DNA of 64,000 nt from Sparassis latifolia (lineage: Eukaryota > Basidiomycota > Agaricomycetes > Polyporales > Sparassidaceae), in NCBI GenBank assembly GCA_018466975.1, contig CM031562.1, positions 186,001 to 250,000 on the forward strand. Reading direction: 5' to 3'. Of the stretch, positions 18,614-40,656 are shown piece by piece. Numbering within the stretch: the stretch's first letter is position 1; every line of letters begins with the position of its first letter. The translations under genes were made by a program, and so were the position numbers. The notes beneath the pieces were generated by a model. The model was not told where the DNA came from and ran no database searches. It worked only from the letters and a program-made list of their open reading frames with translations.

Positions 18614-19859
18614 TCATCGGAATTGCTGAATCCATGCTGTTCCCTTGGCGAGAGCATTCGCAGTCTGTTCGTGAAAGAGTAAGTGGCGGTCAATGGTGAT
18701 CCCTAAGAACTTGTGCACTTCTTGTGGAGGGATGGTCATGGAGTGTAATTGTAATGCCGGTCCAGTGTCTGCTCCTACTGCAGACATGTTGAGGAGGCCA
18801 AACTTCTCTAGGGAGAATTCCGACTGGTGGTTGGCAGACCATTCCATTGCTCTGCTGTCACCATCCATGTATCTGCGAAGGATTCCATGAGTTTCCGTGT
18901 AGTCCTTACCTATCGCAATTATTGCTGAGTCATCAATATAACCTAGGGCCAGAGAGTCAGGAATTTCGTGAGTAATCTCGAAGAGGTCCAAGTTGTAAAA
19001 CTCATAAAGAATGACAGAGAGAGGGCAACCTTGGTCGATACCACAGAGGATCTCGAATAGTGCAGACTTGAAGTCATCAAAAAGGATTCTTGTGTGTCGT
19101 TCTTCCAGGCGTTGTTGAAGCCAGTCTGTGATCTCCTTCGGCACCCCGCGGGAATGCATGTTGTGAAAGAGGCGTTGGAGGTTGGCACTGGGAAAAGTCG
19201 CTTTAATATCGAGGAAGAGGACTGAGACTACCTTTTTCCGGCGCCACGCATCCTTGACCGTCTTAACAAGGAGGTGCAGAGAGTCTGTGGTCCTTCATCC
19301 AGGGCGGCCTCCGAAGTGGTGGTGAGCGAGCAGTCTGCATTTCTCTGAGTGATATATCAGGATGTCAGCTATGCATGCAGACAGGATCTTGCCAATGCAG
19401 TTCAGTAAGGCGATGGGCCTGTATGCTTTGGCCACCGAGTAGTCCAGGCATCCTGGTTTGCGCAAGGCAACTGTATTAGAAATCTTCCATTCTGCAGGGT
19501 AAATTCCTAAAGAGAAAGTCGCGCGGAAGAGGCGGCCAAGATGAGGGAGAAGGAGGTAGATGCAGTACTTGTAGACTTCATTAGGGATGCCATCTGGGCC
19601 TGGTGCTTTCAGCTGTCAGAGCTTCCAGATGACTGCTTCTATCTGGGCATTGGTGATGCGCGAGAATTCAAATGCTGGAGGGCAGTAGGCATGGTCTGCG
19701 GGGAGTGCAGGCGGTGGTCCTGGAGGGGGAAAGAATGTTTGGTACAGGGCAGCGCTCTTCCCCTCATTATCCATGGCTGGAGGATCATTGCCAGCCTTCA
19801 GTGGAGGGACACATGGGCAGCTTCTGTCCATTGGGCCAGCTGCGGTAAATCAGTTGATG
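18614..19859 (-). pseudogene. LINE reverse transcriptase, N-terminal piece
   Basis: The palm domain at 18614-19159 contains RILFDDF, then GIDQGCPLSVILYEFYNLDLFE and the catalytic LGYIDDSAII, with DD as expected. A histidine-rich fingers region and an insert follow upstream in shifting frames to about 19500. 19616-19831 fits the endonuclease-RT linker (FFPPPGPPPALP, then ITNAQIEAVIWKL). The fragment ends at the K1 insertion point. Stops and frame changes are spread along it. Confidence 0.8.
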
Positions 19860-19867
19860 GTCCAGAT
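19860..19867. repeat. K1 target-site duplication, left copy
   Basis: GTCCAGAT, repeated exactly at 57589-57596. It lies inside the LINE coding sequence. 8-bp duplications are what I recall for KDZ/Zisupton-type elements. Confidence 0.85.
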
Positions 19868-20415
19868 CAGCTGTACTTACTAGAAATGTTAACATTGTAT
19901 GGCTAGAGCCAGCAGAGTAGTGTGTACATATGCCAATAGCATTTTACATGCTGTTTTACAAAGGTCATGGGCTGTAAAACAGTCCATGAGCTCTGTAAAA
20001 CTCTTACAGGGTGTTAGCCAGTGCACTGTAATACAGCGAATACTCTGTAATACAGCCCGGACGGCCAGTTGACTCCAGGGCTGGGGCCAGATTTGGCTTA
20101 ATAATCACTAGCACGCTGCACCCTAATATGGAATAGAGCGGCGGGCGGGATGATGGCGGTGAGATACTCAATATGGTATGTTATTCCCACATATTCTGGG
20201 CTTCCGTACTTGAAACTGTCCCTTCTTCCCTGCGGCCCTGCGGCTGTCAGCATATATCTATCATAGGGAAATACTGTAGACATAGATGTAAACATAGAGA
20301 ACATGTTTGTGCTCGACATACCTCTGTATATAGGCAGAAAAGCAGAAAACAGCAGAAAAACATACCACTTGCCGTTACAAAACTGCACCTGCGATTGCCA
20401 AAAAACACTGCACAC
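19868..20415. repeat. K1 left terminal region, non-coding
   Basis: The sequence is nearly the same as 58291-58830 of K3, including short palindrome-like units (CTGTAATACAG, CTGTAAAACAG) that also recur near the right end at 57445-57510. No gene is present. The K1 transposase coding end is separated from it only by K2. Confidence 0.8.
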
Positions 20416-20423
20416 GGCGCCAG
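20416..20423. repeat. K2 target-site duplication, left copy
   Basis: GGCGCCAG, repeated at 40643-40650. The uninterrupted relative K3 reads CTCGCCAGAACATGC at this spot, so GCCAG followed by AACATGC is the native K1 order. GGCGCC is palindromic, but the trailing AG, on the same strand at both copies, favours a duplication. Confidence 0.75.
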
Positions 20424-20507
20424 CAGCTCATTCAGTCATGTTTGTGAACTGGACTCCCATTTACCCTGACATTGTCATGAACTGGACAGCCAGCGGACAT
20501 CGGCCCG
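20424..20507 (+). repeat. K2 left terminal inverted repeat
   Basis: Starts CAGCTCATTCAGTCATG. The inner part (about 20453-20496) is identical to the reverse complement of the right end; the outermost 15 bases diverge. Confidence 0.82.
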
Positions 20508-20554
20508 TCGGTCTATGTAAGGAGCTGTCAGCGATCAGCTCATGGCGATGAAGG

Positions 20555-22060
20555 GAATGCTGGAGCGATGGGCCCACCGCCATATGAGTATTTCTGAGCG
20601 AACAGCCCATCACCATGATGCTACTATTATACAGGCATGGGCCCACTGCCGCGGTGATAGTTCTGAGCGATGAGCCCACCGCCATAGGTGTATTTTTGAG
20701 TGATCGGCCCACTGCCATGGGGCTATTATACAGCCATCGGCCCACCGCCATAGGTATATTTTTGAGCGATTGGCCCACCGCCACGGGGCTATTATACAGC
20801 CATTGGCCACCCGCCATAGGTAGTGTTCTGAGTGATCGGCCCACCGCCACGGGGCTATTGTACAGCCATCGGCCCACTGCCATTGGAGCTGTTCTGAGCC
20901 ATCGGCCGACTGCCATAGGTAGTGTTCTGAGCGATCGGCCCATCGCCACGGTGCTATTATACAGCCATCGGCCCACCGCCACCATGGTAGTACTGAGTGA
21001 TGGGCCGACCACCATAGGTAGTGTTCTGAGTGATCGGCCCACTGCCACTAGGGCTATTATAGAGCCATCCGCCCACCACCATATGTAGTGTTCTGAGCGA
21101 TCGGCCTACCGCCATAGGTATATTTCTGAGTGATTGGCCCATCGCCACGGGGCTATTATACAGCCATCAGCCCACCGCCACCGTGGTAGTACTGAGTGAT
21201 GGGCTGACCGCCATAGGTATACTTCTGAGTGATCAGCCCCCCGCCATTGGTATATTTCTGAGTGATCGGCCCACCGCCATGATGCTATTATACAGCCATC
21301 GGCCCGCTGCCATAGGTAGTGTTCTGAGCGATGGGCCGACCTCCATAGGTAGTGTTCTGAGCGATCAGCCCATCGCCATAGGTATATTTCTGAGCGATCG
21401 GCCCACCGCCATAGGTAGTGTTCTGAGTGGTGGGCCCACCGCCATAGGCAGTGTTCTGAGCGATCGGCCTACCGCCATAGGTATATTTCTGAGCGATCGG
21501 CCCACCACCACGGGGCTATTATACAGCCATCGGCCCACCGCCATAGGTAGTGTTCTGAGCGATGGGCCGACCACCATAGGTAGTGTTCTGAGTGATGGGC
21601 CCACCGCCACTGAGGCTATTATACAGCCATCGGCCCACTGCCATAGGTAGTATTCTGAGCAATGGGCCAACCTCCATAGGTAGTGTTCTGAGCGATCGGC
21701 CCACCGCCATAGGTATATTTCTGAGTGATCGGCCCACCACCATAGGTAGTGTTCTGAGTGATCAGCCCACCACCACGGTGCTATTATACAGCCATCGGCC
21801 CACTGCCATAGGTAGTGTTCTGAGCGATGGGCCGACCTCCATAGGTAGTGTTCTGAGCGATGGGCCCACCACCATAGGTATATTTCTGAGCGATCAGCCC
21901 ACCGCCACGGTGCTATTATACAGCCATCGGCACAACCCCATAGGTAGGGTTCTGAGCGATGGGCCGACCTCCATAGATAGTGTTCTGAGCGATCAGCCCA
22001 CCACCACGGGGCTATTATACAGCCATCGGCCCACCACCATAGGTATATTTCTGAGCCCAT
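20555..22060. repeat. K2 left subterminal repeat array
   Basis: About 1.5 kb of 32-34-bp units, each with the core GGCCCACYGCCA followed by one of three spacers: TAGGTAGTGTTCTGAGC, TAGGTATATTTCTGAGC or CGGGGCTATTATACAGCC. By length there are roughly 45 units. Long open frames exist on both strands because the repeats lack stops, but they simply translate the repeat and are not taken as genes. Position and orientation suggest transposase binding sites. Confidence 0.85.
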
Positions 22061-22120
22061 AGGCATGGGTCGCCTGAAATATCTGACTAGCCTGGGCATA
22101 GCTGAGTTATTTGCCTTGCC

Positions 22121-22477
22121 CTAGGTTGTCAACTGGGCTCGTATCGTGTCCGTGTCATCTTGGTGAAGCATGGGTGGGTGAAGGAACATACCGGATGATT
22201 CGTCAGGGAGTAGCATAGGTGGATGTATGAAACATGGAGATTGGTCGGGGGGAAGCATGGGCGGATGTATGAAATGTGGAGATTGGTCAGGGGGAAGCAT
22301 GGGCGGATGCCACGCCTGATTGCCCGAGGCAAGAAGTTGACCATACGAAGTGAACGGATTGTACCCGAAGTCAACCGAAGAGCACAAAGTAGACGAGGAT
22401 GTGGATGTGTGCGAATCAGCGTACAAGCCGAAGGACATCACAGAAGAAGGGGGCGCCGATGCCGAGTTGTTGCTCAT
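22121..22477 (-). CDS. small hypothetical protein with HPPMLPPDQSP repeats
   Basis: An ATG at 22477 opens a frame of about 118 codons. The N-terminal half is Ser/Thr-rich and the C-terminal half holds four copies of a 14-residue motif, HPPML(P/L)PD(Q/E)S plus variable residues. The motif reflects a 42-bp DNA repeat at 22160-22310. No domain is recognised. It may be an exon of a larger cargo gene or simply a translated repeat. It sits directly inside the left subterminal array. Confidence 0.35.
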   Translation of the reverse strand: MSNNSASAPPSSVMSFGLYADSHTSTSSSTLCSSVDFGYNPFTSYGQLLASGNQAWHPPMLPPDQSPHFIHPPMLPPDQSPCFIHPPMLLPDESSGMFLHPPMLHQDDTDTIRAQLTT

Positions 22478-22689
22478 GTGGCACCTCTTGCTCAGACCTA
22501 TCGGCCCACCGCCATAGGTGTAGTTCTCAGCGATCAGTCCACCGCCATGAGCATATTTTTCAGTGATTGATCCACTGCCTAACAGGGCAATGATGGAGCT
22601 ACCGCTGGCCAATAATTTCCACATAATCCACCCATCATTCCCTCCAATTCTGGTTAGCTTGCTATCAGCTCTCCTTGCAGTATCACACT

Positions 22690-23035
22690 CTCTCCCACTG
22701 TGGAAAGGGTTGGCAAACTGTGGCGAATATCCTTCGCCATCTGAACATGGAGTTCAGAATGACTTCGCCAAACTCTCCCAATTGGCATCGGCATTTCGAG
22801 ACATGCATCAGATACAATTTGGGATGTGCCCTTCTGGGTAGAGTATGTGGAGACGAATGGCGGTCCTTTTCACTGTGAGTAGGGTTGGCGAACTGTGGTG
22901 GATATCACTCACCATCTGAACATGCAGTCCAGAATGACTTCGCCAAACTCTCCCATGTGGCATTGGCTTTCGAGTCATGCATGAGATACCATTGGGGATG
23001 TGCCCTCCTGAGGAGAGTATGTGGCTACTATGTTT
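22690..23035. repeat. tandem duplication of about 170 bp
   Basis: 22693-22860 and 22868-23030 are diverged direct copies. Shared landmarks are GGGTTGGC, CGCCATCTGAACATG, AGAATGACTTCGCCAAACTC and GGGATGTGCCCT. No gene is supported over them. Confidence 0.6.
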
Positions 23036-23130
23036 CGCCTTACCACACCAGGTACATTGCCCAGGTTCAAAGACATGACAACCTTATATTCGACACACTA
23101 CAGCATGAACGGACGCCTGGCATTGGGCGA

Positions 23131-23851
23131 TTACATTCCTAACTCATGCAGCTGCCACGTCACCTCCTGCAGCTCTTCCAGCACCACATCCAGGTTCTGA
23201 TCTGTCCTCTGGTGCAACCAACTAGTGAGGTTCGTGACGTGAACATGCAGCTGTTCAAGCTGCACCAGTGTAGACTCAGAGACGGTGTACACCTTCTCCT
23301 ACGTTCTCGAGGTTCAGCAAGACTGTAAGGTGCTGGAACGTACCACTCACCCAGAGATCACCAAGTTTGTACCACCAGTCCTCCATAGGGCTCCCCGCCG
23401 GCCCAACCTGATGATCCCATTTCCACCAGTAGTCGGATGAATTTTCGAGTAGGTTCTTAGGACGAGGAACGAGGGTGGTGGGGCATGGAATCGCCTTGAC
23501 GTCAATGCTGATGGGGCACAGAGCTTCGCGATTGAAAGTGCAGATGGTGAGGACACTGGCGATAACTTCGCCATGGTCAATATGGTCAGCATGACCCGCC
23601 AACGTGAGGTCGCCACAGATACCCCTGACAGCAAACTGCACAGGACTCAGCAGGGTCAGGTGATATCAGCAAGAAAGGCGTACCATCTCCCGGTGCAAGC
23701 TTTCCTCCCAACGGACCTTGGTGAAGTGATCTGGGTCAGGCTCCAGTGCCAGAACAGCTTCTTGGATCCTCCAAGTGTAGACTTCCAACTGCAACCTCCC
23801 TCTGGAGAACAGGCAGGAGCGCGCATCTGATGTTGAAGACTGGGCAGACAT
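23131..23851 (-). CDS. hypothetical KDZ-associated protein
   Basis: An ATG at 23851 (MSAQSSTSDARSCLFSRG) opens an exon that joins, via a short intron near 23660, a stretch rich in Trp and acidic residues (SSDYWWKWDHQVGPAGSPMEDWW, here truncated, then LGDLWVSGTFQHL). After a likely second intron or a shift near 23300, a helical Leu/Gln-rich tail follows to a stop at 23131-23133. I do not recognise the family. Codon usage and exon size resemble the neighbouring transposase, and it lies immediately downstream of it on the same strand. Confidence 0.45.
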
Positions 23852-24064
23852 GATGGTGAGTGGATAATCTGAGGTTGATATCTGATGGACCTTATCTGAT
23901 GTCTGATGTCATGCGATTGGAGAGCACATGCCGAGATGAAGCCCTCAGGTGAGGATGGAGGTCACTTCGCCAAATGTGATATTAGTGAGTAGGAATTACA
24001 TACATGACGATTACTACATCGATATAGCAAACATGAATATGCGTACACCCCAGTGAACCCTGAC

Positions 24065-27000
24065 TCAAAGCACATTTTCATCGCCCGCCCTTTCGTCCTC
24101 AATGTCCAGGGTGAGGATGTGGCTGAAGGCGTCAGTGGCGTGGCTGGCGAAGGTCTGCCACATACTCACTTGCCTGACGGCATAGCAAACATGACCCCGC
24201 CAGGAAGGATCTGTCATCTCGAGCCAGTGAGCCCATCGTTCCACATTCCGCTTGAAGGTGGCTATGGTCCAGGCCATTTCCGAGTGGACCAAGACATGCT
24301 CCTCCCTCCATCTCTCATATCGAGCTCTGGCACGCAGCCAATTCACTCTATAGACTGGAGGGTAAATTAGCAGGAGGCCTAGAGATCGATCGGACAATTA
24401 CGAACACTCGTCCATCCATTCTGATGAACCTCGATCTCCAGCGACATCCATGGTCCAGAACCAAGCCAGGTTGACGTTCCTGAGCCCGGAGGTGCTAGCC
24501 TCGATGACGGCAGTCTTCACGTGCAGGTCCTTCTTATCCAAAGGGCGATAGAGGGCCAAGTCTTCATCGGTGGCACCCAAGCGCATAATGGCACGTCGGT
24601 TGGTGGAATAGAGCCTGGCACAGGCCAAGATGGTCTGATCGGCAGCATGAACCTCCGCCTGTGCACGGGTCATGGTTCTGACGCTGTTGGCAGGATGAAT
24701 CCTCTTGCGGTAGAGGTAAGACTTCAGTCCAAGCGCCATGCGAAGCTCGTGGAGGATGTCATTCATCAGGCCTTTGCGCAACTCCAACTCTTAGGCCGCC
24801 AGGGTCTGGAGCCCATTGGCGACGGCGGCCACGAATCCGATCTGCGAAGGTAAATTCAAGGAAGCTCGCTCGGGAGGAATCGCATCCTCGCCATACTCAG
24901 CATCCTCCGAGTGTATTTGAAAAGGATTCTCATCCAAGGAATCCCAGAGCGCACCATCGTCACGATCTTCCATGGCGGGAACGTCCTCCAACCTTCCCAT
25001 GAACTTCTCAGAGCGACGTTGGAATGTGAGAATGCTGACTTCGAGGCGCTGACAGCGCTCGAGAGTCTTGAGGTCCTCCGCCACACTCAGATTTTGACCT
25101 GCCTTGCAGATATCATTCGCAAGCTTAAGCCTGAAGACCGTCAGAGCTGTATTTTTGTTAAGATGAGGCAAACTCACTGTGCTTCTTGAATTTTGAGGCC
25201 AGTCGACAACCATCCGGCGGTGCCCTTCTCCAAGCCCTTGGCGGACTCCTCGCCCGCCAGTCTGAGTTGGGTGAGGTCTTTACCCGGGGCTTGCATTCAC
25301 GTCAACTACATGCCACACGACGATGGAAGGATACTCACCCTTCATGAGCTGGACATCGAAGGTGTCCATGATCTTCGGATCATTTTGGCGAGCCTCCATA
25401 GCATCATCGTACTCCTTCTGCCATGCCTCAAGGACATCCTCATCTGTGGATGCAGATAAAGCTTCAAAGGACTCCTTGCTTCATGGGAAGCCCAGGAGCA
25501 CGCATTTCCACTTTGTCATTAAGGTTGGCACTATAGGCAGCATAAGCCAGGTGGCAAATAGGGAAGGAGGAACCAGGCTCACCCATGCGAGTCGTCTTCT
25601 TCCAGTTGGAGTCATTCATGTGATCGTCAAGGACTTCTTGGCGGTGAGCTCGGGTCATGCCCCTGGTACTGCCTGAGACCTCATTTGTCGGCACCCACAG
25701 GGTCTCGATGACCTTGCCATCGACCATACCAGCGCCAACTATAAAGTTGGGCGAGAACCATTGGAAGCAGCAATCTTGGTGTCCGTGCACATGAAACAAG
25801 CCGATGCCTTGGTCTACCTTGAGCTCGAAGGGCATCCTCAGATAGGCGCTGTGGCAGAAATGTTTGCGGACATGGACGCCATACTGGCACATGATGTCGT
25901 ACATGACGAGGATGAGGGTGATACCAGTGAGGGTCAGGAGCGCATTGCTGAGAGAGTAATCCATATTCATTTGTCTGCAGAGGGTGTGTCAGTGAGAATG
26001 AATCATGACAAGAGACATATGCGAACCTTTCTCCCTTCTGGAAATCGACGACAGTATGAGGGACAAAGAAACCATGTCTGGCGCAAGCAGTGGCCCCGAT
26101 TCCTGTGGTGTTGAGGTTGGCGCGATCCACATTGGCCTGATTGACAGCGCGGTGCTCGTGACAAGTGGAGCGCTGGTGGGCTTAGGAGTCAAGGGCAGAA
26201 GAAGAACATGCAGCCAGACATGCACCTGATGCGACTCCATGGCCACCGCCAGATGAGCCTTGTAATCCTCTTGGCCGGCCATGAATGCCTGGCCGTCACT
26301 GAGGGCGACATTCTCCTCGGGGTGCTTCATCTTCATGTGCTCTGCACTGAAATTGCCATCCATGACAAAGCCGCGTTTGAACTTCCACTGCACTGGATCT
26401 GCTTGCCAATCGAAAGGCAGGTTGAGCCCAGGCTGGGGACAGGCGGGACAAAAGATGGCGAGGCCACCCTTCTCCACAGGACGGAGGGCATCGTGTGAGA
26501 AGCTGTGCCACTTGCAATATTTGAATTGGCGCCATTGGCGGGACACTCGCATCAGCTCACGATAACGGTCCTGGCGAGGAACTGGCATGAACGGTTGGGC
26601 CATGGGAATGCATGTGAACACTTACGGGAACAGTGCCAGGGAAGGCATTGCTCGTGACCCATTTGAGCTTGCTGTAGTAGTTCAATGCCGCTGTCTTGCA
26701 CTCTTTGTTCTCCAGAAGGAAATCGTCGAGGATGGCGAATGTGAAGGTGGTATGGGGATCCTTGACGGTACCAGGGTAAAGTCCCATTTGAAGAAGCTGC
26801 ATGTCACGCTCCACTGCCATCTCACACTGGCACCAGTCAACGCTAATATGGTGAACGCCAGAGATGTCGACAATGACTATAATCCGATTCCCGTAACTAT
26901 CACGGCGAGGTGGCCAGGAGAGCACCGGTGGCACATCTTCCTCCCAAGTGGGATCGGGAGCATCGTCGATTTGCCTTGCTTTACCGTCAAGGGTGCCTGC

Positions 27001-27755
27001 CAGAGATGCAAAGTTGAATGGGACCTCACCATCATCTGAGACCTCGCCATCATGTGCATTTAGGTCTTCATTGGAGGCATTCCAGAAATTGGACCCCAGG
27101 GCCACCACCGGCGCAGGGTTGTTATGTGCTGTGAAGGCGCCCAGAGGGCAGGGATCTCCGCCATGCCCCAAATGGATGCAGACGCCAACCGATACAGTGA
27201 TGCCGGCTCAAAATACTGACCCTGCCAATGCTCTATCCGATGGAAAGGAGCACACTGATGGCCGTTATGACAGCAGTCGGTACAGGTGAGCGGTCTGCCC
27301 ATACAGTCCAGGCATCGCCACCGTCCCTCGCCAACCTTGCATTCCGCACAGTTTCTGGGCTCAGGCGAGGCTTCCATCTCGACAATGGCATGAAGATAGT
27401 CATCACGGTGGGGTATCTAGTCCCTCATGAAGTCATTCTGGGTCTATCGCGCATGGTCAGACCATCAGATGGTCATGGCGGGAGTGCCCACCTTTGTCTT
27501 CTGAGCCGCCGGATCCAGCTGAATCGGCACACCTATGTTGCCCAGGACATCGCCATCATCCAAGTTAAACAAGGAGCCTGAAGCTGGAGCCTTCGATGGA
27601 CTTTTGGAAGGCGATGGCACATTTGAACCCGTGGGCATGGGCAAAGGTACGTCCACATAGCGTACTCCCCTAGTGGTCTGCTTAGCTACCTTGGTCACAA
27701 ACTCAACCTCGTCATCCAGGTCTACAACGAGCCTGCTTTTGTTGCATCTGCTCAT
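24065..27755 (-). pseudogene. K2 KDZ transposase with CxC2 cysteine cluster
   Basis: Exon 1 (27755-27492) is joined by a clean 48-bp GT-AG intron to exon 2 at 27443. There the CxC2 cluster is complete: CAECKVGEGRWRCLDCMG, TCTDCC, then PFHRIEHW. Downstream come the usual KDZ landmarks: GHGGDPCPL, VDISGVHHISVDWC, CPACPQPGLNLP, GFVMDGNFSAEHMKM, TGIGATACARHGFFVPH, YDIMCQYG, GIGLFHVHGHQ, GAGMVDGKVIETLW, and a C-terminal SLLYR-type helix region ending WFWTMDV and WRGHVCYAVRQ. It is broken by TAG at 27417-27419 where Trp is expected, a shift near 27190, and TAA at 24791-24793; a further shift near 25475 is likely. The expected reaction is cut-and-paste DNA transposition. Confidence 0.85.
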
Positions 27756-28479
27756 GGTTTAGGTCAGTGGGGAGTCGTATTCCAAGCCAATCGATGAGCA
27801 TTGTGTCCCTATCGCAAAACACGTGCAAATCACACACGGCCTTGCTGCCCACCAGACTACTCATCAAGGTGGTTAAGAATGGCTACAATGCCTGGGCCTT
27901 ATCACCTCGTGGTCTCTTTAGGCACCATATCAGCGTTATGCAGATAAGGATGCCATGTTGGCGAGAGGTCCACCAATCGTATGTCGCCCTCAGTGCTAAC
28001 TTTGCCTTGACTCGGAGTAGCATAATGTTCAAAAGGGAAATGTGCACTTGCACCGCGCGCTCGCCAACACTGCCACCATCTGCCCCACTAGCACTCACAA
28101 CTTCTCGACTGAATACATTTTGCCACCACCTCCGCCAACTTCGAGGTCCGCCAACCATACACTGCCATCAGTGATAACTACACCTTGAGCTGAACACTGT
28201 CGAGATGTGAAACATGCACTCGTACTGCGCGCTCGCCAACCTTCAGCTACAATTTGGAAATTTGTGACTCCATACATTTCGCCATCACCTCCGCCAACTT
28301 TGTCCCACCAATGAAGCTGCCATCGACAGTCTCCATCCCCTGCATAGTGTTCTCATCTCCATCAGTCTTTGGCATGATGTCCCTCTAATAAGCGAGCCAG
28401 TTAGGACCTGTTCTGAGTTAGGAATGCAGACTCGGTGATGAACTGTGCACATGCCAATGTGTGAGGCGTAATATGAAGC
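27756..28479. other. spacer with a diverged duplication
   Basis: No gene is recognised between the transposase start and the TET/JBP stop. Two diverged copies of about 130 bp (28020-28165 and 28195-28320) share GCGCGCTCGCCAAC and CACCTCCGCCAACTT. This is probably 5' sequence of the transposase and the 3' region of the oxygenase gene. Confidence 0.5.
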
Positions 28480-30546
28480 TTACATCCAGTGGGGCGCCAG
28501 AATGCCTAGCCTGTTCTGGACACCCTCTCGCATGAAGTATGCATAGACGAGCCTTTCGCCATCTGCTCGAGTGACGCCATGACGAATCGCCTTTCCACAG
28601 AAGGCTATGATGGTTCCAGGACTATAATCGATGGTGACACGCATGGCGGGGAACTTCAACCATGCGCAAGTGTAGTTGCCCAACGTCGCCAACAGGTCGT
28701 AGAACATGTATCTTGTCTTGCTATCTCGGTGGAAAGGAGTTTCCCAGTTGGCAATCACCTGGAGCACATTGAATGGCGATGACCAGTTCAGCGCCATCTC
28801 TTGCAATTCTGAGTCTTGCTGAATCAAACCCAAGCACTGGCGTCCTGCGGCATATAGCGTTGGGTGAATGACGGCCAGGATGACACCCAGCAATGTGGAG
28901 GAGTCATGAATATCACGCAGCCAACTGCTTCCGCCCTCAAGCTTCAGGCTGGCGGAGGTCTCCAGCCTCCCAGACTCCATATGCTGCAAAGGCTGTCCGG
29001 ACACAAGGCAAATGGCGTGGCGAGGAGACCCACCTCTCTTACTTGTTGGAACCAACCTGGCGAGAGACACAAGGAGCCCGCTGGGAATTGGGCACACTCC
29101 TCAGGAGGCAAGAAGTACAACGGGTTGTGTCGCCAACTGGCGGTGGTGCTGGAAGGCTTACTGGCTGCTATTGCTGGGTGTAGGGCCCTGGTCGCTTGGA
29201 GCATCTTCGTCTGACAAATTTGTCAGATCACAGCACAAGGCTGGGCAAGCCACTCACCTGGCAGTCTGGTATCAACACTCTTGGAAGTATCCAAGCCAAG
29301 ATGCGTCCGTGCATGTCCACGAGGGTGGCGGGCTGGTCTATGCGTATTTTGCTCTCACCAAATGGAGGAGGCCACTTCCATTCCAGTTCTGCCTCGAGGA
29401 CTTCATTCTGCCCTGTGGGCTGAATCGAAAGGCTGTCGCAATATCTATCAATGTCCCACTGCAGCCTTACTATTACAATGGCGTGATCAGTGTGATCAGA
29501 CCTGCGGCAAGACTAATGACTACCAGGATTACGGATGGCCTTCACAAGAGCATCTGCAATGCCATTGCACTCCAATAGGAGGGCGGATGGCATGGACGGA
29601 GGCACTTCTATAGATGGCGCAGAATGGGCTGCATGAGTGGCCAGATGGAGCTTTCGGCGGAACATGAGCTCCAAGACTCCTGCTATCTGATCGGTCAGTG
29701 GCATGGGTGACAGATTGCTCATCTTGATACTGTCTGCCAATCAATGGAACAATTACAGCATGCATCGGTTAAAGGAATGCACAGGTGTATGGCGGGCTCA
29801 GGCGGTTGGCTTGCAGATGCAGGGGAGAATGTAGGAGGGGCCAGAATGGCAAAGAACAGTATGCATTCATCTGCCTGCATATTGCTTGCACCAGAGTCTT
29901 GCATCCCTTGACATCTGCCATGTCATAAGACTGCAGCTTCTCAGAGAGTATGGGCTGATGCTCCGTCAAAATTACAAATCTCACCGGCATGCTTTCTCGA
30001 TGTCGAGGATGAGATTTTTGTGTTGGGGCAGTGAAGGGGGTCGATAGTTCAAGGGCAGCACTCTGTCCATTTCCTCGTCGGCCGCCCACAACTCAACATG
30101 CACGTGCTGATGGCCCATTTGGGCTTACACCAATTACCCTCCTCGCCATGGTGTGTGGTGACTGCTGAAGCATTGTATGTGTATTTTTCGCAGTGGCGGG
30201 AGGTGGTAGTAGGTATGCACTAGCATTCATGCCTGGTGAAAGGCAATGTTGAATGCCGCTTCTATGGCAGAGCACACCACGCCAACTTCATCTCACGAAT
30301 GCTGGGCGGAGGGAATCTGGCGATCATCTGCATGCCAATCTGTGGGATAAAGGACTTCCTCGGAGTTAGGCTCGGCCAATTAGATGGCGGTGATGAAGGG
30401 CCCAGACATGGCGGACCACCCGGCCTGTGATCCGGCATGGCGGCATCAAGTCCAGCTCGGCGGCATGATGAACATGTGAGATGTGCAAGGGACGTGCTTT
30501 CAGAGCTTGCGCCAGAAGCTGAAGACACAGTTTGTCGATGCGTCAA
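28480..30546 (-). CDS. TET/JBP-family 2-oxoglutarate/Fe(II) DNA dioxygenase
   Basis: The catalytic domain lies on three exons with phase-0 GT-AG introns: up to 29258, 29210-29043 and 28992-28480 (introns of 47 and 50 bp). Landmarks in order: PATLVDMHGRILAWILP, WRHNPLYFLPPEE, LSPGWFQQ, GVILAVIHPTLYAAG, WETPFHRDSKTR (the HxD iron pair), YSPGTIIAFCG, IRHGV (distal His) and GERLVYAYFMR (Arg expected to hold 2-oxoglutarate). The stop after LAPHWM fits the family C-terminus. Upstream frames at 29513-30546 (for example ILSEKLQSYDMADVKGC) probably give the N-terminal region, but those junctions are uncertain. The family oxidises 5-methylcytosine or thymine in DNA, presumably in the nucleus. It is divergent from the next gene, whose start lies about 100 bp away. 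No internal stop was seen in the catalytic exons. Confidence 0.85.
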
Positions 30547-30610
30547 ATTATGATGACATCATTGTGGAAACTGTGAGCAGTGTTTCATGTCTGTGAGGTC
30601 TCCACTAACT

Positions 30611-33600
30611 CTCACCACAGAAAATCTGAGAGTGGCTCAATAACCACGCCCACCATGCGCAGGAGAAAGCGACGAAAAAGCATATGCATGTTTCTGGCAA
30701 GCCCAATGCCTTCAAGGTGTGGGATGCACTGGAGAGGGACAAGGTGACTGAGGCCGCGCGAGCACTCACAGCAGAAAAGGGTTGCAATGTCTCCAAGGTG
30801 TGGAGAGTCGCACGGAGTACCGAATGGGCAAAACTGTCCGAGGAGGAGCAGAAGGTGTATGAGGAAAAGGCGGAAAGTTGGCGCAATGGCACTCTGGATG
30901 ATAAGACGAAAATGAAGTGCGTACCTCCTGTCACATAGCATAAGGCAAATCCTGACCTAAGACAGGCTGAGGGAGCAGCGAATGATGCAATATCTGAAGA
31001 AGTTTGCCAAGACTATGTGGGACACCATGGGCATTTGCATGGCATTCATGCTAGCATATCCAAAGGAAGCGGGGAGTCTGAAGGTAGAGATGTGAGCGTA
31101 GACCGTCCAACTGTCACCATCTGCTAACCCCCGAGTGAAGGGTGGAGGTCAACCATGCCATCACCAATGGAACTCCATTCGGGGCCTATCCTGGGTGGCT
31201 GCGTGCTTACCAGCCTCTAGCAAAGGTGTTCTCTGAGTGGGCCAAAGGCGAATATGGTAAGAAGACCTCAGTTGCATTGTCGCTGGCACACTGACCTGAT
31301 TCCTTAGGTGTGACTGAGACTACGGTGATGGTGAAAAAGACACCTGCCAATTGCATGCGGGCCATGGACAAGATTCGTTGATGGCCAACGGTTTTCCTCT
31401 GCTCCCCTCGGTGCCCGAAGGTATGGCGGAAGCGCCTCTCAAGGTGATGAAGGTACAAGTTCGAGACTTCATGAATCATCACTACGGTATGACACTCCCA
31501 CTCGGTGTTGAGAGATGCTGACCAGTTTACAGCATTGGCGAAGGGTGTTCAGAACTGCAAGTCGCCATGGATGAAGCTGAACAGCATAGACGACATCAAT
31601 GAGGTTATTCCAGTGGAGATGCTACCTGAGAACTTCCAGTGGATCGATCCCTCAAAGATGATAAGTGTTCCCATTCGTGCCCTCCTCGACCACTGGCGGG
31701 CATGCCAAGAGGAACATGGACCTGAGCAGACCATGCGATTCACCCAGTACTTCGACAAGGATGGCGAAGCTGCTCCCGCCAAGTATGATCCTCTTCCACC
31801 ACTTGACAGATCAGCACAGGCATTAGAAGAAGGATCTGAACATGAGGTCCAAGAAGCACTCACACCGAAGAAGGCGGGGAAGGTGAAGAAGAAGGGTAAA
31901 CCTGTGCGCAAGGTCACGGGAAAGGCGGCATCAAAGGTAACAAAGGGCAAAGCGGCCCCTGGCGGAGCCAAAGGCGGTGGGCGTAAATGCAAGACGAAAG
32001 ATGCATACGACTCAGAAGACGATGCCAGAAGCAGCCAAGACTCTGATCGGAGTTTGCCAGATATATCCAGCATGGCTTCCGAAGAAGATACGGCCAGCGA
32101 TGAAGATTCAGGGGATGGCGAGAGCGTGATTGCGAATAAAGTGAAGGGCAAGGCGGTCGCCACCACCAATGGACGTAAGGCTAACAATGGCAGTGCACCT
32201 CAAGCGAGTGGTAGCGGCGGTGCCAAGATGAAGGCAAAGCGAGGTCTCCAAGACCTTCCTCTGGGCGCACTGCACAGATTTGACACAGAGGAGACCGATG
32301 AAGCATTCAGTGAACTGGAGCCCAGTACAAAGGAGCTCAGGCTTGAGCTTCAAGGCTGAGCCCCACGTCTCACTGGCGGGAGTACTGTGGGGAGTACTGT
32401 GCCCCACCTCGTCAAAAGGAGAGACGTGTTTCTCGCCACCCTTTCCGTCAAACCGCGATACCAGAATATGCTGAAGGAAGTCAAGATTGCGACTGTGGTG
32501 AGCTCCTTTCATGAGGATTCATAGCCACTATTGATCATCCGTCATATAGCCCCAGGTGTATCGTTTCACCAGGTATGATCCGATTCCCTGGAGTGAATGG
32601 TCGTATGGCCAGCGCTACCTCCTGCCGTCATTTCATGCAGTGGACAACTTTGACATCGTCGAGAACTGGTTGGGCGACAAACCATGGCTGACAAAATATC
32701 AGTTCTTACATCCACAGGGCGTACAACAATCTGCACTCGTGATTGGTATGGTGCTGAGGGACCTCACATGATCTCAGTTCATTGAGGAGGGCAAACCGAC
32801 CAACCTTCCCGACTATGTGGTGAACTCGGCGATCTCATTTGATGCAGTAGAGCAGCTGCTTTGCTGTTGCGAGACCATTACCTTGGACATGGTGGAAGGG
32901 AATGTCACCCATGCCATGGTGAAGCCAGTGAGCAAGCCTGCCATACGCGGTGCCCCACAAGGTGGCGATGGCCTTGGGGGCCAGGAGGAGCAGGAAGGTG
33001 ATGCCTCTGCAAGAACTCATGATGGCGCTGCTACTGCTGCCAAAGTTCACAAGGCTCACCAGCCTGCCCCCATGGCTGACAACCCAATCATTCCAAGTGG
33101 AGGAGATGAAGGGCTGTGCCAGGAGACCGGTGGCGGGGCCTCTGATAATGGCGAAGAGGACAATGTGCACACGTCCGTACCTAGCAGTGGTGCTGAACGA
33201 CTGCCACTGCCTCTGTTTATACCTAAGATGAGGAAGGCGGCAGCCACGGAAGACTGTCCATCAGGTCAAGCCAAAGTGCTCCAGGGAAGGTCGATCACTG
33301 ATGCCTTTCAGAGTAATATCCTCAGCAGGATTACTCGCAGTCAGCGTCAAGCGATGGATGAGTTGCCCGCCAAGAATACCCGCAGTCAGCATCCACTAGG
33401 AGCTGTTAAAGATTTGAAGAAGCTTCCTGATCCAAAGTGGAAATGTCAACCAGCACGTCCCGAGCCCGATGGCGAAGACAGCTCTGGCGAAGACAATCCG
33501 CCACCTCGGAAGCGTGGACGTGGTACTCGGGATGAGTTGGTAGTGGCCTCGCCGAGGAAGAAGAATGCGAGGGCCGAGGACTCGGATGATGGTGACAAGC

Positions 33601-33764
33601 CTCCCGCAAAGCGAAGACGAGCTCTGCCTCAGACCCTGGAGGTCAAGGACAAGGGAGAAACCAAGCTGAAGCCGGTCCGTCTGGGGAAAGCAGCCGCCAA
33701 AGTGAAAGAGAGTGGCCAAGTTGGCGCAGGTCGCAAGACCCGCAGTGGCGGCACCAGACCTTGA
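30611..33764 (+). CDS. KDZ-associated cargo protein (K2 copy)
   Basis: Multi-exon plus-strand gene. Early exons read WLNNHAHHAQEKATKKH, then an alanine/lysine helical domain (NAFKVWDALERDK, EEEQKVYEEKAESW), then LREQRMMQYLKKF and FGAYPGWLRAYQPLAKVF, and VRDFMNHHYALAKGV leading into the 284-codon frame from 31505. Introns near 30917, 31095, 31256 and 31485 have GT-AG ends. A middle exon (32556-32771; RYDPIPWSEWSYGQRYLLPSF) and a long 3' exon (from about 32790) end in Lys/Arg-rich, probably nuclear sequence. Layout and WxxNH-type opening match the K1 gene at 46376. One shift near 31378 is likely. Function unknown; a packing or DNA-binding role is only a guess. Confidence 0.65.
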
Positions 33765-33980
33765 CAATATAACTCCAGTTCAAAGTAGACTCGTAGGCTT
33801 CCACATTGTTTAATGTGACCCATAGATCTACATAGGTAAAGCCATGGAGATGGTGACAATGGCAAGGGGAGTTGGCAAGAACTTCAGCAGGCATTCAGTT
33901 GACTTAGAGTGGTGGTGGCGAATCGAGTGCATGGAGATTCCATGCTAGGTTAAAAAGCATGTATATCAATACTCTAATGA

Positions 33981-36900
33981 CTACACATTGTGTCTATCTG
34001 GGCGAAAGGCGGTGAAGACCATGGCGGAGTCGACCTTCTCTCGGAATGTGTCCAGAGACTTCGCCACCAGCGAGGTTTCCTCTCTCACCATCGCCACCTC
34101 CTTCCCCACCTTCTTCGCTTCATCCAAAGCGGACATTGCCACCGCCATCGAATCCTCTTTGGCGAGCGCCAATTCCATCTCCAGCTTGCTCGCTTGAGCG
34201 ATCGCCTCTGCCGCTGAAGACCTGAGCTCCTTCTTCATGCTGTCTGACCACGCTGCCTGGAGCTCCATCGAATGATGGAGGTCGGCCAATTCACCCTGCA
34301 GCTTCTCGACGTCCGCTTGGCTCACCGTCTGGTTCGCGCCTTGCTCCAACCTGTTGACCTTCTCTGGCAGGCAATGTCGCTTGGCGACGAGGTCTGCCAC
34401 TGCCAACTTCACGCTCTCCTGAAGCTCGATGGTGACCGGCCTGCGAAACTCCTCCATCGCCAACTTGACCTCTTCGTGAATGCTCCAGGCATTTTCTTGA
34501 AATGTGGATGGCGGGTTGATTCGCTGGAGCGCCGCTGTGATCTCTGCCTTGATGGTGTTGAGGTCCGCCATCCTCTCCTGAAATTGGACTTCCATCCCGT
34601 CCTTGTGCGCCAGGAACTCCTGTTGCAACTCGGCACAATTCGCGCAGTCATCATTGGATGACTGTGAGGTTTCTTCGCCACTGGGGGTGTCGCCTTCATT
34701 CACCAGAGCGGGACTTCCTGTAGACACTCGCTGGACATCGCGCAAGTGGGGTGCTATATCCCTGATCAGCGCTGCATGGATTTGAAGCTGTGGCGGGCGC
34801 ACTTACCCTTGCTGGTCGGAGGCACTGCTCTGAGGCGGTTCACCTTCGCATCCCTTTTCACCTCCGCCTCCTTCTTCGCTGCCTTGCGGTCCAGTGGGGC
34901 GCCCCTCTTAGCTGGCCTTCGCCCTTCATCGAGATGTCCTGCCTTCGCCAATGTGGAGGACTTCACTCCCTTTGACACCTTGGATATCTCCAGGGAGGGC
35001 GTCACCTCCTGTGCCACCTCGGCAGCTCCTGCGCTCGTCTCGTGGGGCATCAGCAGCGAACGCCGCCGATCATTGTGTGGCCGCTCCAAGGATGCACGCT
35101 GTTTCATGGTTACATCGACTCCAGCTGCGACAAGATGTCCTGCTTACCTCATCCTCCACCACCTCTGCCTGATACTCTGGCGCATCATCTGGTTCATCGG
35201 CGACTGGTGTCAGCATGCGCTTGCTGCTGCTAGCTTGCGGCGGAGCAGCTGGCCCTGTTTGGAAGGCCATAGCCCGCACCACCTCCATTGCCAGCCTGGC
35301 GGCTTCCTCCATGTCATCACCTTCTGCCAGAGGCATCTTGGCTGCTGCTTTCGGAGCACTCACCTTTGCCTTCCTGGTGATCACAGGCACCATTGGGCCC
35401 GAGTGACCTCCCATCGCCACCCTTGTCGTCTGCCCGCCCTCCTTCGCAACAGACTTGGCAGGCGGGACCTCATTCGCCTTACGTACTGAGGTCCTGGTGA
35501 CCTCGCCACCATCTTGCGCACCTGAGTTTTGGCTCCTCACCGGCTTTGGCTTGGGTCCTGACTTCTTACCTTCGCCAGGTTTGGCGACTGCACCAGACTT
35601 GGCAGGCATGCCAGACTTGGAGACCTCGCCAGAGTTGGCGACCTCGCCAGAGTTTGACAGAGCCACAGCTCCAGTGGCAGTGGTGGACTTGGTGGCGCGC
35701 TTGGACTTCAATGATTTCTCCACCAAGGCCTCGCCTTCAGGGTTGGCTTCATTGGGCGTGACGGTCACCTTCTGCTTCGTCGCCTCGACCTCTTCGCCAT
35801 CCTTGACCTTGGAGCTGGATGCCGCAGCATTGCGCATCTTGGTCTTCTTCAGCGGCTTGCACTTCGACGCTCCCATGACCATGGGTTCTGCACCGTCGGG
35901 CTCATCAGAGTCGACCTTGACGTCGTATGGAGGTGGCAACATGGGCAGTGGCTTGCCCTCTACCACCAGTGCTGCGCACATCTCTTGGAACTCACACTGT
36001 GCGGTGTGTGAGTTTCCTCACAGGGACACGCCATCTGTGTTCCTCAGCGCGATGCTGCAACTGACGCCTTGTGCTGCACATTCGAGGCAGCGACCGAAGT
36101 TGGCGGTGTTGAGCTTGCATGGCCACTCTTTCTCCTGGCAGCCAACGCAAGGGACGAGCTGCAGGAACATTAGCACAGGTCAATGTCTCACAAGATCGTT
36201 ACTCACCAAATCTGTTGCATGTGCCCACATGAAGTCAGACACGTGGGTGGATGTCTTTTTCCACATGTCCTTCTGCAACACCGTCACCTTCCCCTTCGCC
36301 TTCCCCTTCGCCGTCGCCTTCCCCTTCGCCATCGCCTTTGCCTTCCCCTTCCCCTTCACCTTCGGTGCGACATGAGGCATCGCCATCATCCTCGTTGTCT
36401 GTTTGACAGGTTTGGCAGGGGCGTTCGTCTTCGCAACACCGTCGTTAGAGTCCCCTGCAGTCTTGGCGGGTAGATTGGAAGGCGGTGCCGGAGTCTCGTC
36501 TTCGCTTTCAATGAACTCCTTGCTCTTGTATTCCTTCGTCGCACGCTTCTTCTTTGGCGGCTTGACGGTCAGTACTTCCTCTTCATTGCTTGACTCCTTT
36601 GCCTTCCTCTTCCCGCTCTTCTTCGTGCTCACCTTCGAGCCCTCCACCTCGGTCTGCACCATCCTCTTCTGTGCACGCTGCGCTCGACCAGAGGTGGTCG
36701 GGGCCTCGCCTTTCTCCTTTGCGACCTCGATCGGCTTCATCCGCTTTGCCTTCGGAGCCGCCTCCTCATTCTCACTCTCCTCACTCGACTCTGTGATGAC
36801 CGCCTTGCGCTTTCGGAGTGATGGGGCAGCTGGCGAGATCGATATTGGTCTGGCAGTTGGCGGAGGGGGCAACGCCGCATCGACCTGGATGGATTCGGGC

Positions 36901-37778
36901 TGGCCTGCACCTGGCATGTCTTCTGCCATCTCATCGTCGTCATCTTTGTCAGCATCGTCATCCTCGTCACTGTCGGCATCGTCGTCGTCCTCGCCCTCCT
37001 GCTCCTCTCCCTCTCCCTCTCCCTCTCCCCCATCCTCTTCCTCGCTCATTGCATGCACCGCCTTCCCCTGCACCTTCTCCTTGCTCTTGCCCTTTCCCTT
37101 GTCCTCCCCCACCTCCACGTGGACGATACGCTCACCCACCATGCCTGTCCCGACATCGTTGTCAGCTCTCTCCTTGCCTTTCCCCTTGGTGATGAGGTCC
37201 CCGGTAGCCAGGTCCTCCTCGCCACGTCCCTGGGTGTCGTCATCGGCTGGCACATTGCCCCAGCCCTCTGCTGGCATACTCTTCACCAGTGGCAGCTTGC
37301 AATATGGATCTGGTGCAGTCAGTGTGTTGCTTGATGCCTCACAACACTTGTGACTCACCTTCAGTCCACCACTGCCTTCCCAGGTCCTCACACTCCCCAT
37401 ACTCGCACACAGCCAGAGGTACCTCTTGTATATCCTCTCGTCATCGTTCGATATGTGGTCCAGCCGCGCCAGGGCCTTCTGCTGGTATGCCCAGGTGAAT
37501 TCCAGCAACGCGCTGATGACGATCCCAGGCATCCTCAACGACTTCAAGGGCTGCGGGAAACTCTTTTCAAGCTGACTCTGTGTGACATATTTGGTAAGTG
37601 CATGCCAGACCTTCGACCGATGACTTACCACTTCGAGGTAAATCCTCGTCTCCCAGTCCGGATAGTGAGGGTCGTCCTGGCGAGGCGCCACTGCAACAAT
37701 GGCCGTCAGTCGCGCGGCCTGCAGAACATAGTTGGGGTCAATATCCAGAGGCATGGTGAGCTTGGCAGAAGAAAGCAT
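33981..37778 (-). CDS. cargo protein with six-Cys cluster, acidic/basic tracts and coiled coil
   Basis: The N-terminus (37778; MPLDIDPNYVLQAARLTAI within it) is a globular domain of about 130 residues (PQPLKSLRMPGIVISALLEFTW). After it come long Asp/Glu and Lys-rich tracts around 36300-37250. At about 36010-36170 a cysteine cluster reads CVGCQEKEWPC, then CLECAAQGVSC. This spacing (C-2-C-5-C-9-C-2-C-6-C) is close to fungal zinc-cluster types and is usual beside KDZ genes. A Ser/Lys-rich part (35070-35981) is followed by a 270-residue coiled coil (33981-34802) rich in Glu, Lys and Leu. Introns of 50-60 bp connect the parts, for example after IYLEV near 37640. Binding of DNA or chromatin is inferred from composition only. 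Confidence 0.6.
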
Positions 37779-38096
37779 GAGGGTGTTTCAAAAGCAGAGG
37801 TTGCAGTACAGTGGAGGCGGAGCAGACGACGCTATGAGCTGGCAGATGCGATCTGCACCAAGTTCAACTTCACACGCCACGCGACCACATGCTTTGCATG
37901 TGATTGCTGGACTTGCACGATTTCTCAAGTCTCTCAAGGTCAGTGTGACCTGCCGCAAGTTCTCATGGCTCCCAACAGTAAGTTCTATTGCTCTCCTTGT
38001 GGAATCTGACTCCTTTGTGATGTTATCTGACCTTTCTATGTCATATCAATCCCCTTTCTACAACTGATCTCCCGCGATCCAGGACTGATCGAAGAC

Positions 38097-39522
38097 TTGT
38101 CTGCTCGCCACAATCTACCTGCCATGGCCAGTGACGCGGAACCTCCTGACACGCTGGACATTACGATGGGCGAGTCGGATGAGGAGGATAGTATCGCTGA
38201 GCCCCGTCGTCCACTCATTTCGGATCTCCTTGACTCTCCTGGATCTGCCCAGATCTCCTTGCCTCTCCACTCTGCTTCTCAGACACCCCTCGCGCCCTGC
38301 CGCACTACCCCGTCCCTGGCGGCTCCATTTGCGCCATCCAACTTGCCACATGAGCATCTCCACCGCCACACCTCGTCAAAGGTACAGGCATCATCTGGAT
38401 CTGTGGCGCATGTGGAGGGAAGTCGTGCACTTATTCCTGACCCTCTGGCACCAGCTTGGGATGAAAGTCATGGCAGTTTGCCAATCCATAGGCATGCACT
38501 CATCTCAGATTCCACCCCCACTGCACCTGGTGGAATGTTCGACTTTGACACTCCTGGCATCTCGCCAATCCCTCGATGCGTCCTGTTGGAAGCTACTCCC
38601 CTTCCTCCACCAGCTCACACTTTCGACTTTCGCACTCCTGACACCTCTCAACTCCCTCAACGATCACTCATCGCTGAGCCCCTTGACGCTACATCACGTA
38701 CATCCATCCACTTCAATAGTCAAGCAAGTACGCTGATGGCAAGGGGCATGCTGGTGGATGAGACACTTGACGCAGAACCAGTGCTGAAACTGCTGGACTT
38801 TGACAATAGTCCTCCCACCACACCAGGACGACAGCGAGCTCTGGTGATAGACAGCCCTGGTGCGACACCTGTGCGTAGCCAGGTCCGGTGGCTAAATAGT
38901 CCCAGCGCTTCGCCTCCAAAGAGGCAGCCTTTGTTGGACGATGTTTTAAGTCCACTGCCTCCACCATCGGCGCCCTCTCACTCGCCAGCTTGCACTTTCG
39001 ATGACAGCAATTTCCGCCATGATGCACCTGTCATTCACTATATGAAAGGCAGCATCGAGCCAGTCACTGTTACTTCCAGGATGCCAAGTCTGGCAGCACT
39101 TCCAGATGAGCTGCTGATCCATCGTCCCACCCATTGGGAACAGGTTTCAGGCTTATTCCCAGATACCACACAGCTGCTGCCAATGGCAGTCCCTGGAGAG
39201 ATGAATGCTGCTTCTGGCTCACAAGTGGCCCGCCTCAGTAGATCGTTTGCGCAGATCGCAGCAGAGGCAGACAGTTCCAGTGAGTACATCCCTGGCAACC
39301 TTCAGTCTGATGTTGACCTTATTCATAGTGGACGATGACGAAGGTGATAGCTTTGCAGTTAGTCGTCGTCACGCCATGTTGCGGGAGCGCATTGTACGTC
39401 TTCAGCGTGAGCTCAACCTCACTGAGGATATGCACGTTGCGAACCTCAATGCCAGCTCGACCGTGTTCCAAATGGGGTACATTCTGAGGGACATTCGTGG
39501 CGAGGCGTATCGCAGCAACTGA
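38097..39522 (+). CDS. cargo protein with about eight degenerate 30-residue repeats
   Basis: The main frame (ATG 38124, MASDAEPPDTLDITMGES) carries repeated units that begin R(A/P)L(I/L) plus acidic residues and contain FDFxTPxxSPxP; eight can be traced between about 38200 and 38990. A 3' intron (about 39281-39329, GT to AG) joins a final exon at 39330 (VDDDEGDSFAVSRRHAML) with a heptad-like helix (LRERIVRLQRELN) and a stop at 39520. Proline/serine-rich repeats suggest a disordered protein. No known family. It may have a further 5' exon near 38040. Confidence 0.6.
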
Positions 39523-39689
39523 ACTAGTGTCTTTGAGCATTCTGGTGTTAGCAATATATGACCACTATGTAACAGCTTGTATACCAGTACAAAATGGATA
39601 CATTCACTTCTGCATCACTAAGCTCTAAAGCCCATCGCTCCTCCAGTGTACTCTTCAGATGAGCAGACTGCGCTCGCCATTACCAAGGC

Positions 39690-40559
39690 ATGTTGTTGCC
39701 AGCAATTGGCCCATCACCAAAGGACCTGAGTGAAAGCTTCACTGCATGGGAATATCGCTCCGCCAGCAAAGGGCCCACTGCCAAGGGTCAGAGGGTTGGC
39801 CATCGCCAAGCCGTGTTTTCGCCACCAATTGGCCCTCTGCCATGAGTGCTGGTGAGTGATGGGCCCACCGGCAAAGGTCAGAGGATTGGCGATCACCAGA
39901 GCACGTCATCACCACCAATGCACCCAGAAACTACAGGGCTGTATGTGACAATGGGCCCATTGGTGGCGATGACATATCCTGGTGATTGTCAACCCACTGG
40001 CCTTTGGTGGTGGGCCGATTGCTGGCGATAACATGCTCTGGCATTGGCCAACCCTCTGACCTTTGGCAGTGGGCTGATTGCTGGCGGAAACATGTCCTGG
40101 CGATGACCTATCCCATGGGTGCTTGCAGTAAGGCCCTCACTGAGGATGCTTTGGTGATGGGCTGACTGCTGGTGATAACATGCTCTGGCAATCATCAACC
40201 CTCTAACCTTTGGCGGTGGGCCCATCCTTCAGGTTACACTCTGGGCGATCGGCCCACTGCTCGTTCGTCATACTCTGGCAGTGGGCCGATTGCTCAGACA
40301 AACATGCTCTGGCCATGGCCAACACTCTGACCTTTGGTGGTGGGCCCATTCATCATCTTACACTTGTGGCGATGGGCCCACTGCTCATTGATCATACTTT
40401 GGCAGTGGGCCCATCGATGGCGATAACATGCTCTGGTGTCGGCCCACCCTCTGACCTGTGGCGGTGGGCCCATTGCTTAATGGTTACAACACTGTAATAT
40501 GCCCTGCTAGTGGGCCGAGCACTGGGCCCACTGCTGGTAGAGGTCAACATGGTGACAAT
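39690..40559. repeat. K2 right subterminal repeat array
   Basis: About 870 bp of looser units. The commonest core in the plus strand is TGGCRGTGGGCC, the reverse complement of the left-array core. Units end in variants of CAAAGGTCAGAG or AACATGCTCTGG. No coding sequence is supported. Confidence 0.8.
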
Positions 40560-40642
40560 GGGCTGACATCCGCTGGCTGTCCAGTTCATGACAATGTCAG
40601 GGTAAATGGGAGTTCAGTTCAGGTAACATGACTAAAAGGTGT
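40560..40642 (-). repeat. K2 right terminal inverted repeat
   Basis: Reverse complement of 20424-20507, ending ACATGACTAAAAGGTGT at the outer edge. It is followed directly by GGCGCCAG. Confidence 0.82.
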
Positions 40643-40656
40643 GGCGCCAGAACATG

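Follow-up and report, generated by a model that had tools for sequence, protein, structure and literature searches.

A 20-kb KDZ transposon carrying a TET/JBP oxygenase gene in Sparassis latifolia

Can a gene for a DNA-oxidizing TET/JBP enzyme travel inside one mobile element with definable ends, and is it of use to that element? The question is raised by a stretch of 64,000 nucleotides from the fungus Sparassis latifolia, of the order Polyporales (assembly GCA_018466975.1, contig CM031562.1, positions 186,001–250,000), here called the window; coordinates without a contig label are window positions. An earlier note, made from the sequence alone, had placed at 20424–40642 a KDZ transposon with terminal inverted repeats (TIRs), an 8-bp target duplication, an empty-site relative, a TET/JBP gene and at least three other large genes, and had proposed it as a possible mobile epigenetic-modifier unit of a kind not previously delimited. 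The analysis confirmed that the element is real and upheld this observation as a whole, with a right end one base further, at 40643. What is established is a set of common ends with 7-bp duplications, a collinear content of some 20 kb in seven copies, and about two dozen copies of full size. The interpretation thus stands for the mobile element, its defined ends, its TET gene and its collinear genes, and falls for the 8-bp duplication and for novelty. The family is best explained, with considerable confidence, as a TET-carrying, Kyakuja-like KDZ transposon of the cut-and-paste type, in which TET would have a role of its own.

Ends, duplications and copies of the element

The element occupies 20424–40643 on the plus strand (20,220 bp, 5'-CAG...GTG-3'; ends were compared in 27 pairs). 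Its left TIR (20424–20506, plus strand) and right TIR (40560–40643, minus strand) contain a core, 20445–20506 and 40560–40621, of 62 nt that is 94% complementary. Aligned from the extreme ends, 72 of about 84 columns are identical (86%), and the repeats are therefore terminal, as the earlier note had held. The left terminus starts with CAGCTCATTCAGTCATG... and the right terminus, read on the other strand, with CACACCTTTTAGTCATG....

Genome-wide searches of the 41.4-Mb assembly (22 contigs) recovered the same termini at many sites. The best 40 of 126 candidates match the first 137 bases of the element at 92–100%, and the best 40 of 125 match the last 137 bases at 93–100%, in both cases all from base 1; for the latter query, 120 of the 137 bases aligned in all listed matches except the window copy. 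End patterns allowing up to three mismatches gave at least 65 left and at least 58 right matches, both lower bounds, and a reversed control gave none. All 65 listed left ends start with CAG, and 27 of 27 right ends in the pair comparison finish with TG, one further right end being TA; the termini are thus CA..TG, as in TET-carrying Kyakuja elements.

The literal 8-bp repeat GGCGCCAG is present at both window flanks. Since left ends begin with CAG and right ends finish with TG, its eighth base is the element's own terminal G, and comparison of flanks across copies led to rejection of an 8-bp duplication in favor of 7 bp (GCGCCAG, at 20417–20423 and 40644–40650), again the length found in TET-carrying Kyakuja elements. 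Among 12 exact cases, the base needed for an 8-bp duplication fits two, including the window, and the other register fits three, which is about chance. A first set of 27 end pairs, three of them later re-paired, had identical 7-bp flanks in 12 and six of seven bases in one; among the 33 elements finally tested, 15 have exact 7-bp duplications and three more agree at six of seven positions, two of these in duplicated copies.

The window also holds a paralogous empty site, K3 (58284–59967). The left flank of the element (19862–20408) matches 58284–58831 at 84% and the right flank (40645–41769) matches 58834–59967 at 80%, the two being contiguous in K3, so the element must lie inside an older repeat. 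The right side of that repeat extends over 40645–42867, and the repeat seems KDZ-related because it has a KDZ domain at 42412–42867 on the minus strand. The empty-site relative named in the earlier note therefore holds, as a paralogous and not an allelic site; being paralogous, it demonstrates insertion and gives no date. Both hallmarks of a DNA transposon, the same ends at different sites and an empty site, here a paralogous one, are thus present. KDZ neighbors lie beside three copies (the window, C1:821999 and C11:3836032), which may hint at a preference for insertion at other KDZ elements.

Pairing of ends by orientation, within 45 kb, gave 53 pairs: 23 with a net length of 19.3–21.6 kb, 22 of 3.5–9.3 kb and eight of other lengths, with 17 ends unpaired. 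A Tet_JBP match lies in 22 of the 23 full-size pairs, and the remaining one (L079) has a decayed TET gene inside. In 21 of these 22, the match lies 5.5–9.2 kb from the left end, and in one, a copy with a nested 9.3-kb insert, 18 kb from it. Read from end to end, six further copies proved collinear with that of the window except for an inversion in the latter and for array length; with the inverted segment flipped first, the seven copies are 95.6–98.5% identical pairwise beyond the left array. The full-length copies sharing these ends, for which the earlier note had proposed a search, are thus represented by the 23 full-size pairs.

That note had also named two outcomes that would count against one element, and each was found in part. 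The same ends do bound shorter DNA in the 22 short TET-less pairs, with unrelated interiors in the four that were read, and TET genes do occur outside such ends: of the 44 Tet_JBP matches genome-wide, 16 fall outside pairs and 28 inside, the full-size pairs accounting for 22. These partial outcomes do not undo the claim of one element, because TET is present in 22 of the 23 pairs of full size. Among the 16 outside pairs, four have one matching end nearby, at the distance expected, and six form a second group (C8:489342, C9:283737, C10:525251, C10:4950538, C11:2344673 and C14:688115), with 204-aa frames that match the profile from position 63–66 to 162–163; five of the six lie 12–13 kb from a KDZ match, and the group is probably another TET-carrying family. 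A candidate for a host TET gene outside transposons lies at C7:3173839.

Genes, subterminal arrays and short partners

The TET/JBP gene (28253–29880, minus strand; a six-exon model of 460 codons) lies inside the element, as first noted, with a Pfam Tet_JBP match at 28480–29100, minus strand (E 1.4e-18). It matches CcTET at E 1.7e-21, and the seven relatives in a protein search came from S. crispa (three), Panus (one), Coprinopsis (one) and two others, the best being from Sparassis. In the window copy, a TAA at codon 399 truncates the protein beyond its catalytic core, which is kept. A set of 33 TET genes was assembled from the 32 with the standard upstream junction plus the window gene, copies with no such junction being uncounted. 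The H, D and H of the metal site are retained in 32, 31 and 32 of the 33, and the equivalent of CcTET Asp337, in numbering counted from the TET–CcTET alignment, in 31; in 19, the catalytic core is open and has its metal-binding residues. The 33 genes contain 25 in-frame stops, 11 of them arginine codons changed from CGA to TGA. These 11 fall on seven codons, each CGA in most copies (one gene fragment was excluded from this codon check), and part of them are probably inherited and not independent. Part of the frameshifts in these genes may be assembly errors.

Directly upstream of the TET start, the segment 29884–30506 is inverted in the window copy only. The inversion junction occurs at one place in the genome and the standard junction at 32, and no long inverted repeats were found flanking the 0.6-kb segment. 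On these grounds it is read here as a rearrangement private to this copy, in preference to a switchable promoter upstream of TET, which had been considered. The inversion also cuts the putative first-exon frame of a gene termed A, leaving 38 aa in the window; of the six other copies, four have 110 aa, and in two the motif used missed the frame.

The transposase region (24791–27207, minus strand) contains a KDZ domain at 25464–25988 (PF18758, E 9.3e-29) and a CxC2 cysteine cluster at 26557–27207 (PF18803, E 5.9e-26), the combination that defines the KDZ superfamily. The KDZ frame of the window copy is 174 aa long; copies with less damage have one of about 385 aa. With its cut TET gene, short transposase frame and private inversion, the window copy is damaged and of older date; it lies inserted in another element.

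At least three further large genes had been proposed in the earlier note; annotated Sparassis proteins back two of them, B and C, and open frames alone are the basis of the third, A. The remaining part of gene A (30507–33764, plus strand) has a weak HMG-box-like stretch followed by lysine-rich and acidic frames. Gene B (34044–37754, minus strand) encodes, as read from the sequence, a large, charged protein that has a cluster of cysteines and, at its C-terminus, a coiled-coil-like part, and gene C (38085–39519, plus strand) a proline-rich protein with degenerate internal repeats. At E ≤ 0.001, all five relatives of B and all nine of C come from S. crispa or S. latifolia; only about 8000 candidates were scored, so this does not prove orphan status. 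No Pfam match reached the curated cut-off for three proteins of genes B and C. For the HMG-like stretch of gene A, the best Pfam HMG-box match (E 0.0066) was below cut-off, a match to SOX-30 had E 0.0045, and an HMG fold could not be shown with a single-sequence model at pLDDT 47. Elements that combine KDZ and TET genes reportedly carry an extra divergent HMG-like protein (Iyer and co-workers, 2014), and gene A may be that protein. Genes A to C would be accessory genes. A sliding dN/dS over all frames was tried for gene calling and set aside as too biased by CpG transitions; a spectrum-corrected test of nonsynonymous to synonymous changes (N/S) was used in its place.

Next to the TIRs lie two arrays of the motif GGCCCAC[CT][GA]CCA. 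The left array (20562–22121, plus strand) is built of units of about 33 bp, and the right array (39679–40480, minus strand) holds the motif mainly inverted. In the window copy, the first 1700 bases contain 20 motifs on the plus strand and none on the minus strand, the last 1070 bases contain six minus and one plus, and the intervening 17,450 bases contain one. All 11 elements compared (seven of 20 kb and four short) carry the motif at both ends, inverted, with zero or one in the interior; array length varies widely among copies. This arrangement makes it likely that the arrays bind the transposase.

The ends and arrays are common to the 20-kb element and to four of the 22 short pairs (L067–L070) that were read. 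The interiors of these four are 92–96% alike among themselves in the main aligned blocks and have no match to the full 20-kb copy C11a; a Tet_JBP profile search found no match in any of the 22. In one of the four, L067, most of the sequence is made up of 169-bp units that are repeated in tandem and lie in either orientation, and no open frame outside the arrays reaches 110 aa. The flanks of three agree at seven, seven and six of seven bases, and the fourth lacks a duplication. Taken together, such features indicate that the short TET-less elements are probably non-autonomous and moved by the same transposase.

The remaining features of the window lie outside the element. Just to its left, 18614–19294 is a fragment of a reverse transcriptase (RVT_1, E 2.8e-12). 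A Ty3/gypsy-type retroelement with a chromodomain occupies 48948–54166, with matches to gag, protease, reverse transcriptase, RNase H and integrase in split frames. A 460-aa open frame at 55451–56833 has no Pfam match at E 0.001.

CpG decay and the role of TET

An excess of C-to-T changes at CpG is the mark expected of methylated DNA. Among the seven 20-kb copies, such variants affect 923 of 2416 CpG sites versus 263 of 8049 other C sites, an approximately 12-fold difference. The observed/expected CpG ratio is 0.75–0.78 for five copies and 0.67 for a sixth; the window copy, at 0.63, is therefore the most decayed of the seven. In the short elements L067–L070, the ratio is 0.19–0.39. From the C-to-T excess and the CGA-to-TGA stops, methylation probably reached the elements despite TET, at a cost to the TET genes, a pattern suggesting that demethylase genes are themselves being lost through CpG-to-TpG stops.

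In the mechanism favored here, the transposase would act on the TIRs together with the inverted GGCCCAC[CT][GA]CCA arrays and would mobilize in trans the short TET-less elements with the same ends. TET would oxidize 5-methylcytosine on the element copies or more widely, and this oxidation would permit expression or mobilization before silencing by the host. An epigenetic-modifier unit, as proposed in the earlier note, is thus plausible for the family, the window copy itself being damaged. A more elaborate version casts the 20-kb element as helper in a system of two parts: TET would have to clear methylation-sensitive end arrays, many of whose units contain a CpG, before the transposase acts, and large, non-coding, satellite-like partners that share the ends would exploit both in trans. 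This is a speculative extension that we consider doubtful.

Several observations weigh against a cut-and-paste element served by its TET. No exact 7-bp duplication flanks 18 of the 33 tested elements. In the window copy, each of the two arrays has the shorter core GGCCCA on either strand. TET is free of stops, frameshifts, deletions and lost exons in only four of the 33 genes, one of which lacks the usual stop codon. Observed/expected N/S among the seven copies is 0.81 for TET, 1.01 for B, 1.10 for C and 1.25 for the transposase. A CpG excess of the same kind marks other repeats of the window and the short elements: CpG transitions relative to other transitions stand at 12.5–15.3 in three 20-kb pairs, at 2.5–24.8 in four window repeat pairs and at 6.9–11.4 in six short-element pairs, with few sites in the last two sets. 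This small comparison shows no lasting protection in cis by TET. In the window, the Tet_JBP search found no further match beyond the element's own TET, and hence none in the other repeats. TET may, however, work in trans or just for a short time, and its role is one that we infer from sequence.

Three of these observations, the neutral-like N/S, the 29 of 33 TET genes with at least one lesion and a CpG decay ratio within the range of other repeats, are also what recommends a passenger TET, captured long ago and carried along without benefiting the element today. Decay after insertion is, however, expected of any transposon gene, the transposase decaying likewise, and near-neutral N/S among seven copies is expected if most variants postdate insertion. 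The metal-binding residues persist in nearly all copies and the core is open in 19 of 33; moreover, TET recurs in many transposon lineages, as described in Kojima 2025 (PMC12730594). On balance, we regard a passenger TET as rather unlikely. A TET that works on the host genome as a whole and not on its own element, kept for shaping host methylation, would fit the oxidized methylcytosine that PMC12730594 and PMC8889193 place also on retrotransposons and other repeats of Coprinopsis and Laccaria. Full-size elements, however, account for half of the TET matches (22 of 44), and in the second group five of six lie 12–13 kb from a KDZ match, which makes service to the host still less probable; host TET genes outside transposons were not looked for.

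The flanks also bear on whether the 20-kb unit could be a chance nest or a segmental duplication and no single transposon. Two copies, C10:2829356–2856465 and C11:3024777–3051688, each with a nested short element, share 200 of 200 bases of left flank; the pair is a segmental duplication or an assembly artifact and should be counted as one event. For the family, such an origin is refuted by flanking duplications that differ from copy to copy (exact at 7 bp in 15 of 33), and the paralogous empty site and the shared end points of the listed copies likewise leave it with a negligible probability. Among the 18 elements with no exact duplication, reciprocal exchange accounts for two, and a shared 7-mer for one junction of two more. 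The two exchanged copies (C10:495586–515388 and C10:538596–560016, its start also placed at 538597) lie in opposite orientation with their target flanks exactly swapped, as expected after inversion by recombination between them.

Relation to known KDZ elements

TET genes inside defined transposon ends, with termini and duplications, are described by Kojima 2025 (PMC12730594), and the novelty claimed for this arrangement was therefore anticipated. That paper reports TET-carrying Kyakuja elements from five orders of Agaricomycotina, including Polyporales, and proposes an escape from methylation-based silencing. By its main-text description, on which our comparison is based, Kyakuja-1_LB and Kyakuja-2_LB of Laccaria resemble the window element in having KDZ and TET genes inside their ends, 7-bp duplications, CA..TG termini and a TET related to CcTET; the likeness to Kyakuja is set by transposase, duplication and termini. 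The two Laccaria families are said there to be TIR-less, whereas the Sparassis element has TIRs of 84 columns at 86%, and the position of CcTET Gly331 is Gly or Ser in the Kyakuja TETs of that account but Thr in 32 of the 33 Sparassis genes, which makes it doubtful that the enzyme would act on 6mA. Zisupton, as cited in PMC12730594, and the mobile Cryptococcus elements KDZ1–3 (PMC12810828) likewise combine a KDZ transposase with TIRs and short duplications. The Cryptococcus elements are shorter (about 9–11 kb), with longer TIRs (139–241 bp) and other duplication lengths (8 bp for KDZ1, 4–8 bp for KDZ2 and KDZ3), and the part of PMC12810828 consulted mentions no TET. In Laccaria, most TET genes carry oxidized methylcytosine and only four of 46 are expressed (PMC8889193), a picture with which TET decay in Sparassis agrees.

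An expansion of TET along with KDZ transposases in basidiomycetes was reportedly described by Iyer and co-workers in PNAS in 2014; the linkage of KDZ and TET/JBP is alike in Sparassis, and ends, duplications, TET-less partners and a decay spectrum are set out here for its family. In the literature, no paper was found that joins Sparassis with KDZ, and none that joins TET JBP, KDZ and HMG. The Sparassis element is a large and well-defined addition to the published TET-carrying KDZ elements, largely anticipated by them (PMC12730594). The family is set apart by its 84-bp inverted repeats, by motif arrays held in common next to the ends, by partners that share these ends but lack TET, and by a strong decay of CpG. 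Two dozen similar TET transposons, their TET-less partners and a mutational record of methylation amount to a natural experiment on self-protection by a demethylase, and the Sparassis family is in this sense a good test bed and not a new kind of system.

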